From: Alphaproteobacteria bacterium
GTDB lineage: Bacteria > Pseudomonadota > Alphaproteobacteria > Micavibrionales > Micavibrionaceae
DNA: 37,432 bases
Reading direction: 5' to 3'
Assembly: GCA_023140215.1 (NCBI GenBank)
Contig: JAGLMC010000078.1
Coordinates: forward strand, 1-37,432
The first letter of the stretch is position 1, and each line of letters starts with the position of its first letter. The notes below the pieces were generated by a model. It did not search any database and had not been told where the DNA came from. It saw only the letters and a list, made by a program, of their open reading frames with translations. The position numbers and the translations under genes are program-made. Below, piece by piece: positions 10,777 through 23,525 of the stretch.

Positions 10777-10851
10777 GAGAATACTGCCCCGATTATATAT
10801 CCTCTATAAGTTTAACAAATTAGCACGTAAATTTGCAAAAATTTTAAAATA

Positions 10852-10995
10852 TAGTGTTTTTAAATAGGAATCGTACAGATTCTATTTAAAATTGTACCGT
10901 GCGACTGCACGGCGGGCGTAAGCCCGAAGCATGTCCGGCGTTTGAGGACTTGCATTAAAAATATCAGGTTTTTAGTGCAAATTATTATACTTAGA
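10852..10995 (-). repeat. R1 dispersed repeat, copy 1 (four-hairpin 3' element)
   Basis: A 144-bp unit that aligns without gaps and at about 90% identity to 22545-22688. Hairpins on the plus strand: A 10861-10888 (GAATC stem extended by TAAATA/TATTTA around one bulge), B 10897-10912 (CCGTGC, loop GACT, GCACGG), C 10913-10926 (CGGGC, loop GTAA, GCCCG) and D 10950-10980 (12-bp AT-rich stem, 7-nt loop). It lies 15 bp past the DUF3126 stop, on the 3' side of that gene. Read on the minus strand, hairpin B is followed by TACAATTTT, so it could act as a terminator. Confidence 0.85.
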
Positions 10996-11010: not shown

Positions 11011-11238
11011 TTATATTGTAGCCGGTAGGTCAATATCAAGAATTGCCATGTTAAAATTATAGGAAATTTCACCGTCTTCATCATCTTTATAGATTAGGCC
11101 TATAAATTCACCATTGAGAATAACCTCAACGGAGTCTGTTGCTTTTTCACGCATTTTTAAAGCGATGTCTTTAACACCAAATGTTTGTTGTAAATAGGAT
11201 TGAAGTCTTGGAACTTCAACCGGATCAATTACTGCCAT
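11011..11238 (-). CDS. DUF3126 family protein
   Basis: A 75-aa soluble protein matching, by recall, the small alphaproteobacterial DUF3126 family: N-terminal PVEVPRLQSYLQQTFG, a middle VEVILNGEFIGLIYKDDEDGE and the C-terminal ISYNFNMAILDIDL. The role of the family is unknown. A good Shine-Dalgarno (GGAG, 9 nt before the ATG) supports the start. Single gene between olsA and repeat R1. Confidence 0.85.
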   Translation of the reverse strand: MAVIDPVEVPRLQSYLQQTFGVKDIALKMREKATDSVEVILNGEFIGLIYKDDEDGEISYNFNMAILDIDLPATI

Positions 11239-14437: not shown

Positions 14438-14514
14438 GCACCCGTAGCTCAACTGGATAGAGTACCTGACTACGAATCAGGCGGTTGGAGGTTCGAATCC
14501 TCCCGGGTGCGCCA
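14438..14514 (+). tRNA. tRNA-Arg (anticodon ACG)
   Basis: A complete cloverleaf of 77 bases including an encoded CCA. The acceptor stem GCACCCG pairs with CGGGTGC. The anticodon stem CCTGA/TCAGG encloses CTACGAA, giving anticodon ACG (Arg, CGN codons after A-to-I editing). The T arm has GGAGG, TTCGAAT and CCTCC. It is the only plus-strand gene between 4245 and 26651. A weak promoter candidate is TTGCAT (14377-14382) with TAATGT 17 nt later. No intrinsic terminator is obvious in the 51 bp before hisIE ends. Confidence 0.97.
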
Positions 14515-21076: not shown

Positions 21077-21982
21077 TTAATCCATCATTTTTTCTATTGG
21101 TAAAACGAGAATAGAACTAGCCCCTTTGTCTTTTAGGTCTTCCATCGTATTCCAGAACACTTCTTCTTCACTTACAGCGTGAACAGCAACTTGTTCATTG
21201 CAACCTTTTAAGGGAATAATTGTTGGTGCTTTAGAACCGGGTAGAACAGCCTTGATTTTATCCAGCGCATTAATCGGTGCATGTAAGACAATATAGCGAC
21301 TATTTCGCGCTTTCAGGACAGCATTCATGCGTGTGACTAAACGGACACAAATACTATTCAGATTGTCCGGCATATTTAAGTTTTTAATCAGCACTGCTTG
21401 ACTGTTCAGGATAGTTTCAACTTCTTTTAATCCATTTGAAGTTAGTGTATTGCCTGTGGATACCAAATCACAAATAGCATCGGCAAGGTGTGTTTTTGGG
21501 GCAATCTCTACCGCACCGCGCATAGTTACGATTTTTGCATTTATATTTTGGCTTTGAAGATACTGCGCTAACAGTCCTTTATATGAAGTAGCAATTGTCT
21601 TTCCATTAAAGAATTGTAATCCCTCATAATTTATTTCATTTGGTACGGCTAATGATAAACGGCATTGTCCAAAGCCAAATTTTACAAGTGTCTCTAATTT
21701 GGAAAAATTGCCATTTTCAGAGTTTTCTTGCGCCTCAAATTCTTGTGTCTCAAACAATACATTTTCACCAACAATACCTAACTGACATACATCTGTAGCT
21801 ACAAAAGCAGGAATATCATCATCACGTACTAAAAGTACATCTAATGGAAAATTTTGCGCACGGCATAATAATTGATCTTTGCTTCTTTCCAGCGTAATAC
21901 CGCATTTAGATAGCAAATCAAGCGAACGCTCTGCCAGCCGTCCCGATTTCTGAACGGCTATTTTTAATCTTGTGTTTTCCAT
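21077..21982 (-). CDS. hisG: ATP phosphoribosyltransferase, long form
   Basis: Committed step: ATP plus PRPP give phosphoribosyl-ATP. The 301-aa length marks the long form with its own C-terminal ACT-like histidine-binding domain (about 225-301, AVHAVSEEEVFWNTMEDL to SILVLPIEKMMD), so it should be feedback-inhibited without HisZ. Catalytic-domain motifs: NTRLKIAVQKSGRL, VRDDDIP, LGIVGENVL, ATSYKGLLAQYL and DAICDLVSTGNTL. Many alphaproteobacteria have the short HisG with HisZ, so the long form here stands out. The start overlaps the yerC stop by one base (TAATG). Confidence 0.97.
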   Translation of the reverse strand: MENTRLKIAVQKSGRLAERSLDLLSKCGITLERSKDQLLCRAQNFPLDVLLVRDDDIPAFVATDVCQLGIVGENVLFETQEFEAQENSENGNFSKLETLVKFGFGQCRLSLAVPNEINYEGLQFFNGKTIATSYKGLLAQYLQSQNINAKIVTMRGAVEIAPKTHLADAICDLVSTGNTLTSNGLKEVETILNSQAVLIKNLNMPDNLNSICVRLVTRMNAVLKARNSRYIVLHAPINALDKIKAVLPGSKAPTIIPLKGCNEQVAVHAVSEEEVFWNTMEDLKDKGASSILVLPIEKMMD

Positions 21983-22275
21983 TAGATATGCCCAAGCCGT
22001 TTTAATATTGTGGTATAGCCGTTATGTCCGTATTTGATAAAACGAGCTACACGCCCCACTGTAGTAGTGCTAACTCCTATTTCATCGGCAATCTGGCGGT
22101 AAGGCTTTTTCTCAGTCAACATTCGTGCAACATGCCACCGCGCAGTAAATTCCTCTATTTCGGCAGGCGTACAAAGATCATAAAAGAATTGTTTACATTC
22201 TTCTGTTGTTTCAAGTTTTAAAATTGCTTCAAACAATTTTCTTTCTTCGTCTTTTTGCACGTTATGCAATTCCAA
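21982..22275 (-). CDS. yerC: YerC/TrpR-family DNA-binding regulator at the head of the his operon
   Basis: A 97-aa all-helical protein with the TrpR-superfamily pattern: FFYDLCTPAEIEEFTARWHVARML followed by the helix-turn-helix YRQIADEIGVSTTTVGRVARF (about 59-79). No membrane or enzyme motifs. Its place as first gene, coupled to hisG by TAATG, suggests it represses its own operon in response to histidine; TrpR-family his regulators are known in other bacteria. The frame starts with TTG at 22275, no ATG is available upstream before a stop, and there is no strong Shine-Dalgarno, so the exact start is uncertain. Confidence 0.85.
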   Translation of the reverse strand: MELHNVQKDEERKLFEAILKLETTEECKQFFYDLCTPAEIEEFTARWHVARMLTEKKPYRQIADEIGVSTTTVGRVARFIKYGHNGYTTILKRLGHI

Positions 22276-22352: not shown

Positions 22353-22544
22353 TTGCATGCGCTGACGGAGATCTCGTTATATTATCATTTTGCGTTAAAT
22401 ATATTGCCCCTGTAATTTTTATGTAAACGTATTTGTGGTGCTTCTGATGAATATATTCCTATACTTTTTTCCAAAAGTCAAGAGAAATTTACAAATAAAA
22501 TAAAAACTTAAAAAAATTAATAGAAAACCAGCACTTGGTAATTA
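22353..22544. other. AT-rich spacer upstream of the his operon
   Basis: The gap between yerC and purQ (22276-22706) is the only gene-free stretch above 300 bp. It holds the his promoter region (22279-22352), this AT-rich part and repeat R1 copy 2. I see no convincing ORF, tRNA or riboswitch here. Confidence 0.5.
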
Positions 22545-22688
22545 TAGTGATTTTGAATAAGAATCGTGCAGATTCTATTTAAAATTGTACCGTGCGACTG
22601 CACGGCGGGCATATGCCCGAAGCATGTCCGGCGTTTGAGGACTTGTATTAAAAATGTCAGATTTTTAATATAAATTATTATATTTAGG
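22545..22688 (-). repeat. R1 dispersed repeat, copy 2 (four-hairpin 3' element)
   Basis: The partner of 10852-10995, in the same orientation and with no indels. Hairpins fall at 22554-22581, 22590-22605, 22606-22619 and 22643-22673. In hairpin D the C-G pair of copy 1 (10953-10977) is T-A here (22646-22670), and another T.G wobble becomes T-A. Hairpin C becomes a fully symmetric palindrome (CGGGCATATGCCCG). It lies 18 bp beyond the purQ stop, again at the 3' end of a minus-strand gene. Confidence 0.85.
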
Positions 22689-22706: not shown

Positions 22707-23525
22707 TTATTTCTTTATTGAAGTATCGAAATATGTAGCTGCGTTTTTAAAGATTGTCATTCCATCGCTTGTTTTTAAAATATTCTTACCGTTTCGTTGT
22801 GCTTGATCTTTGATTTTATGGTAATCATCACGCTGCCATGTGAACATTGCGCGCTCCGGGTGTGGCATTATAGCCAGCACTTTACCGCTTTGATCTGTTA
22901 TGGCTGCAATGTCTTCTATTGAACCATTTGGGTTGTATGGAAATTCTCCATCAGCATTGCTTCCGTCCGATTTTATATATCTTGCTGCTATTTGATTGTT
23001 TTTCTTAAGTTCTTTAAGCGTTTCTTTTTTCATCATGAAACGTCCTTCACCATGTGCTACCGGAATGTGCATGGATTTTATATTTTTAAACCATGGAGAT
23101 TTTGTTTTTCCGGTTTTAATGTTAACCCAGCGACACTGGTAACGTGCGCTTACGTTATGTGTTACAGCAACAAGGCGATCTCCGTAGTCTTTCTTAAATC
23201 CGGGGACTAGACCAAGATTGGCGAGAATTTGGCAACCGTTACAAATTCCAAGTGTTAATGTATCACGTTCTACAAATTTTTGGAGATCATCCCAAATTGC
23301 TAATTTCATTTTTTGTGCAAATGCGTTTCCAGAGCCAGTGTCATCGCCGTAGGAAAAACCACCGGGGATGGCTAGGATTTGTATATTATCCAGTTCTTTC
23401 GGATTTTCTATTAGATCATTGATATGACGTATAGAGCCTGAAAAGCCATTACATTTAAACGCATGAAGAGTTTCTTCTTCACAATTTAATCCGTATCCAC
23501 TGAGAACTATTACTCTTGCTGTCAT
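22707..23525 (-). CDS. purQ: Phosphoribosylformylglycinamidine synthase glutaminase subunit
   Basis: Class I glutamine amidotransferase that supplies ammonia to PurL for FGAM formation in purine synthesis. The 272-aa protein has IPGGFSYGDDTGSGNAF, the nucleophile in LGICNGCQIL (Cys95), VAHGEGRF, and MPHPERAMF near the C-terminus, so the triad is intact. It is about 40-50 aa longer than the usual PurQ of PurS/PurQ/PurL systems. Such a longer PurQ accompanies PurL proteins of about 1000 aa. The ATG directly follows the purL stop (TAAATG). Repeat R1 follows downstream. Confidence 0.93.
   Translation of the reverse strand: MTARVIVLSGYGLNCEEETLHAFKCNGFSGSIRHINDLIENPKELDNIQILAIPGGFSYGDDTGSGNAFAQKMKLAIWDDLQKFVERDTLTLGICNGCQILANLGLVPGFKKDYGDRLVAVTHNVSARYQCRWVNIKTGKTKSPWFKNIKSMHIPVAHGEGRFMMKKETLKELKKNNQIAARYIKSDGSNADGEFPYNPNGSIEDIAAITDQSGKVLAIMPHPERAMFTWQRDDYHKIKDQAQRNGKNILKTSDGMTIFKNAATYFDTSIKK

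Follow-up and report, generated by a model that had tools for sequence, protein, structure and literature searches.

In a contig of an alphaproteobacterium of the Micavibrionaceae (Alphaproteobacteria bacterium, GCA_023140215.1, JAGLMC010000078.1, positions 1 to 37,432 of the forward strand; this whole stretch of 37,432 nucleotides is termed the window), two similar non-coding segments are located shortly past the stop codons of two genes. This raised the question of whether they represent a dispersed, RNA-structured module of gene 3' ends, as proposed in a preliminary description, or copies of a mobile element. The analysis favours the latter: with a probability of about 0.7, the segments belong to a non-autonomous miniature transposable element (MITE). 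The window's own genome, designated G000, comprises 1.71 Mb in 116 contigs and is 97% complete.

The two window copies and their conserved core

The two gap-free copies with about 14 differences were recovered, with an identity of 91% over 148 nt. Their boundaries had been drawn loosely at 10852-10995 and 22545-22688, and aligned relatives place the ends so that each copy extends from TATA to TATA (Table 1). The distance of 15-18 bp to the stop codons is correct for the looser boundary, with the true ends being 21 and 24 nt away. The neighbouring genes were named correctly, as the matches to PF11324 for the DUF3126 gene and to GATase_5 for purQ revealed. Instead of four hairpins five were identified, designated A to E, since a short hairpin with the loop GGCGTTTGA is present between the ones previously called C and D. 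The exchange of a C-G for a T-A pair in the former hairpin D is real, and this hairpin is E in the five-hairpin scheme.

Table 1. Positions of the element copies, their parts and the adjacent genes in the window.
Feature	Positions	Strand	Domain match
Copy 1, whole element, hairpins A-E, ends TATAGTGTTTT and AAATTATTATA	10850..10989	+	
Copy 1, left inverted end and hairpin A	10850..10896	+	
Copy 1, core hairpin B, CCGTGC-GACT-GCACGG	10897..10912	+	
Copy 1, core hairpin C, CGGGC-GTAA-GCCCG	10913..10926	+	
Copy 1, conserved linker AAGCAT	10927..10932	+	
Copy 1, core hairpin D, GTCC-GGCGTTTGA-GGAC, loop in common with Streptomyces repeats	10933..10949	+	
Copy 1, hairpin E (10950-10980) and right inverted end	10950..10989	+	
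Copy 2, whole element	22543..22682	+	
Copy 2, core hairpin B	22590..22605	+	
Copy 2, core hairpin C, CGGGC-ATAT-GCCCG	22606..22619	+	
Copy 2, core hairpin D	22626..22642	+	
Copy 2, hairpin E (22643-22673) and right inverted end	22643..22682	+	
DUF3126 gene, stop 21 nt from copy 1	11011..11238	-	PF11324, E 3e-28
purQ-like glutamine amidotransferase gene, stop 24 nt from copy 2	22707..23525	-	PF13507 GATase_5, E 6e-83

The element is non-coding and about 140-165 nt long across its copies. It consists of the inverted ends TATAGTGATTT...AAATTATTATA, of hairpins A and E, which form long arms on these ends, and of a core containing hairpins B, C and D. For the two window copies, fold z-scores of about -6 on the plus strand and of -4 to -5 on the minus strand were obtained; on either strand the fold was better than each of 200 shuffles, and the plus strand folds better. 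With minus-strand genes on both sides of each copy, DUF3126 and purQ are antisense to this better-folding strand. The gene located across copy 2 from purQ (21982-22275) encodes a Trp repressor-like protein (PF01371), and the sole Rfam match in the window is a tRNA gene on the plus strand (14438-14511).

In the core, hairpin B (loop GACT) and hairpin C are followed by the linker AAGC and by hairpin D with the loop GGCGNTTGA, which is also written GGCGUUUGA. In an alignment of core sequences trimmed by hand to near-equal length (A4), 14 of the 15 pairs were changed on both sides, as compared to 0 of 500 shuffles. There, 95% of the cells were paired, a value which neither shuffles nor slid registers came near; trimming of the rows favours the structure, yet slid registers drop to 28-47% paired. 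When twenty genomes were compared with one curated row each, the core stems were found to be swapped through compensatory changes, while three features were usually kept across lineages, namely the tip GC-GACT-GC in B, the linker AAGC and, in D, the GGCGNTTGA loop. Arms and ends differ wholly by lineage, with TATAGTGATTT in the group of the window, TATAGTCATTT in genome G017, TACCAAG with a TNA flank in GC-rich lineages and TAGAGC in G351.

In hairpin B, two adjacent positions are mostly occupied by Watson-Crick or tandem G.A pairs. The latter would be C.T mismatches on the other strand, so that, judged from these letters, the plus strand looks like the functional fold. The comparison of G-U with A-C mismatches (30 to 16, p 0.05) is suggestive only and leans to the same strand. 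MITEs normally need only their ends to be kept, and a class-wide covarying core is unexpected for a plain MITE.

Distribution, insertion sites and ends

A covariance model built for the element (R1) was used to count copies at E<=0.001, and a second model (R2) covers the core. In the window's own 1.7-Mb genome at least 30 R1 matches were identified, and a BLAST search with copy 1 against this genome gave at least 46 matches at E<=10, about 27 of them long. Of the earlier view, the dispersal, the structure and the covariation are supported, as is the conclusion that the segments are no remnants of coding DNA. Within the same taxonomic family, R1 matches come from 24 of 104 genomes, which represent 14 of 39 genera. 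They occur in bursts, with at least 31 in G019 and at least 26 in G017 in addition to those in G000, and with zero in most other genomes of the family; most congeners contain few or no copies. In a sample of the class, R1 matched 9 and R2 16 of 385 genomes. When GC-rich relatives were used as queries, megaplasmids of Azospirillum and Niveispirillum were identified as named carriers.

A core search at E 1e-4 with stricter filters in 398 genomes of the phylum matched the own genome alone. Plasmid and phage collections gave no meaningful match to a window copy. In viral contigs, a 21-mer of the element had 0 matches, and the 45 matches of the 15-mer TCCGGCGTTTGAGGA were judged to be near chance. 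Rfam 15 contained no credible match at the element at gathering and relaxed thresholds, and a description of the element or its core was not found in the literature searched by sequence. Many copies are truncated. Short versions consisting of A, B and C only were seen at L090 (G001), just ahead of a sequence which by eye we take to be RNase P RNA, and at L087 (G109), just ahead of what by eye is presumably a tRNA gene.

Nearly all copies are intergenic. Copy after copy carries the terminal inverted repeats TATAGTGATTT / AAATAACTATA, or variants of the respective lineage, with TA at both tips. Empty orthologous sites, with the neighbouring genes unchanged, were identified in sister species for two loci, L072 of G095 as compared to G097 and L071 of G063 as compared to G062, in which a single TA stands against TA-element-TA; these are comparisons of presence and absence between species at about 70-76% identity. 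In the AT-rich group, TA is present at both tips with no longer duplication visible, and TA alone is weak evidence. GC-rich copies are flanked by matched 3-bp TNA repeats, as in 5 of 6 copies of G135. Two Azospirillum copies (L417 and L418) have TGA/TGA flanks, and the repeat of L417 is located at the stop codon itself. In one frame the end of the element reads TAT AGT GAT TTT GAA TAA, and this TAA, 18 nt into the element, is the exact end of several neighbouring open frames.

The preliminary description had also pointed to a partner transposase. No RAYT gene was found linked to the element, but an IS630-family element with matching ends is present in the relative G017. It is 894 bp long and encodes a DDE_3 domain. 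Its end matches most element ends of G017 at 18-21 of 26 bases, and its own two ends match each other at 20 of 26. As background, 27 of about 82,000 26-mers in the G017 loci reach 18, and nearly all of these are element ends. Genes for DDE_3 proteins of the IS630 family were detected in 13 of 24 tested genomes. The IS630 ends in G097 and G002 begin with TATAGC; in G351 they begin with TAGAGC like the local element, with only six bases in common. The IS630 of G019 was rejected as a source, its ends being different (TAGTACCCCG).

On this basis, a mode of insertion can be proposed. The inverted ends start with TATAG and lead into the long hairpins A (left) and E (right); an IS630-family DDE transposase acting on these ends in trans would most likely insert the element at TA sites. 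Copies may survive beside stop codons because these contain TA, or in other lineages TNA, and also because 15 nt of open frame in the element end are followed by a stop codon. Once transcribed, the chain of hairpins probably alters processing or stability, by analogy to Correia/NEMIS elements. No IS630 (DDE_3) gene was found in the 116 contigs of the 97% complete own genome, so that the enzyme acting there is inferred. Recent mobility, an influence on mRNA and a function of the core are likewise inferences.

The same ends were also identified with other contents. In G017 and G019, TATAG ends also enclose palindromes resembling CGTC-type REP dimers (GTCATTGCGAG..., GTCATCCTGAACTTGTTTCAGGAT...). 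At L351, L352, L353 and L355 of G019, TATAG...CTATA ends or a similar left end surround palindromes replacing the B-C-D core, and the same is seen at L360, L362, L363 and L366 of G017. A 49-bp palindrome of G017 (L364:1001-1049, C18:37500) consists of the two ends only and is empty of cargo. A comparable arrangement is described for Anabaena, where GTAG-15 REP dimers are present inside TATAGGA palindromes (PMC3733652). Occurring with other or no cargo, the TATAG ends look like a general vehicle, for which the B-C-D core would be one of several hairpin cargoes.

Position at gene ends and the alternatives

With genes defined as open frames of at least 70 aa in AT-rich genomes, 43 of the 78 3' ends of flanking genes are no more than 30 nt away from the element, as compared to 18 of 54 gene starts. 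Convergent flanking gene pairs outnumber divergent ones (22 vs 10, p 0.05), and among tandem pairs, 25 have the plus strand in sense and 9 in antisense orientation (p 0.009). The preference for 3' ends probably results mostly from insertion and tolerance. The pattern fits an insertion at TA or TNA together with a loss of copies from promoters, and a mild benefit of the sense orientation would be compatible with it.

These counts also speak for the role in which the element was first regarded, a 3' module maintained specifically for the host genes to terminate transcription or stabilise mRNA, and the strong folds on both strands would suit this role. We nevertheless consider it improbable. Terminator-like sites were searched at both window copies and none was found, which argues against a terminator role at copy 1 as well as copy 2; both copies are, in addition, oriented antisense. 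Orthologues in sister species manage without the element, and 54 of the flanking sides are gene starts. In G095 one copy (L315) is located between two genes which we take to be rpoA and rplQ; these two genes normally share one operon. Of the dispersed 3' module, the frequent position just past stop codons is thus retained, for what is primarily a mobile element. Covariation, the stable fold of the plus strand and the sense bias in tandem pairs might likewise be explained by a family of independently transcribed small RNA genes that became multicopy by chance. This is very unlikely, with promoter-like sites being no commoner than in shuffled sequence and Rfam giving no match, and with inverted ends, empty sites and many truncated copies pointing elsewhere.

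The remaining alternative concerns the mode of movement. The folded core could mobilise the element as single-stranded DNA or RNA, in a REP/RAYT-like manner or guided by the core RNA, with the inverted ends being secondary. Only the core is conserved class-wide with strong covariation while the ends differ, and in the AT-rich group the plus strand, with the tandem G.A pairs in B, folds about 14-15 kcal/mol better. However, TA or matched TNA repeats next to inverted ends indicate a DDE enzyme, and these ends are the ones found with other cargo or none. Mobility by a RAYT or Y1 transposase was rejected, as Y1 genes are missing from G026, G020 and G013 and, where they do occur, are decayed or not linked to the element, and the element consensus contains no GTAG tag, which is a criterion for REP/RAYT systems. 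Mobilisation by the core is therefore unlikely, and the MITE mobilised through its ends is preferred. A decayed IS200-like Y1 transposase gene with one internal stop codon was seen in the own genome (L050, C110:199-564).

Relation to known repeats and significance

By analogy, the element appears to work like RUP and Correia/NEMIS and to have an outline like CIR. RUP of Streptococcus pneumoniae is about 107 bp long and intergenic, and its mobilisation by IS630 was proposed from common ends and TA targets (PMC2229807). The same argument holds for the element and for RUP with IS630-Spn1; however, no class-wide covarying core has been described for RUP, and the IS630 matching the element is present in a relative and not in the own genome. 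The Correia/NEMIS elements of Neisseria, of about 107-155 bp, have inverted ends and TA tips, and their transcripts are cut by RNase III (PMC2229807, PMC10969869). The likeness in ends and tips is one by description, and Correia/NEMIS form one long stem, whereas the arms of the element fold separately. CIR repeats of Caulobacter, Brucella and other Alphaproteobacteria are intergenic, about 110 bp long, with TA tips and two arms joined by a linker (PMC2229807). Compared by description alone, this resembles the two arms A and E with the core between them and TA tips. GANTC, which forms the tip of the CIR arm, was counted when present anywhere in a copy, and was found in 20 of 30 copies of G000, 14 of 14 of G017 and 3 of 27 of G019. 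CGTC and GTAG REPs are intergenic palindromes favouring gene 3' ends, with CGTC being common in Alphaproteobacteria and defined by a CGTC tag, a stem of 8-9 bp and a loop of 4-5 nt (PMC3733652). Membership in the CGTC REPs was rejected, because the core has three different hairpins and no CGTC/GTAG tag on a stem of 8-9 bp; REP-like dimers do occur as alternative cargo within the ends of the element. The class-wide covarying core sets the element apart from the known MITEs.

For hairpin D a similarity outside of the phylum was identified. In the genome collection, at least 118 stretches contain the exact 17-mer of hairpin D; among the matches listed, all are from Streptomycetaceae. The Streptomyces intergenic hairpin CCGGCGHTTGAGG was found 10-192 times per strand in eight Streptomycetaceae genomes, in one of which it is near background, as compared to 2-14 times for the reversed control. 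Like the element, it carries the loop GGCGNTTGA on a variable stem in many copies per genome, with AGC two bases before the stem and T, A or C at loop position 5. Unlike in the element, no hairpins A, B, C and E were noticed in its surroundings, and most R2 matches at Streptomyces loci cover only the linker and D (positions 32-53) or fit weakly at full length. On the letters compared, the likeness is counted as a common motif. In Embleya hyalina (L165), D-type hairpins are arrayed in tandem at a period of about 66 nt, with similar clusters elsewhere in the genome.

A doubtful but conceivable extension is that the core, with its GGCGNTTGA loop and AAGC linker, was carried through the Alphaproteobacteria by different transposon ends, and that hairpin D is the Streptomyces motif. 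If so, one widespread factor would recognise the GGCGNTTGA loop, as RNA or single-stranded DNA, in two phyla.

For the Alphaproteobacteria, the element adds a class-wide repeat family which is absent from Rfam and of which no description was found in the literature searched. It points to a partner factor for the GGCGNTTGA loop. With the covarying core being kept class-wide while ends and arms were replaced, selection on the inside of a non-autonomous element becomes testable, and since the Azospirillum carriers are culturable, the element is open to testing there.
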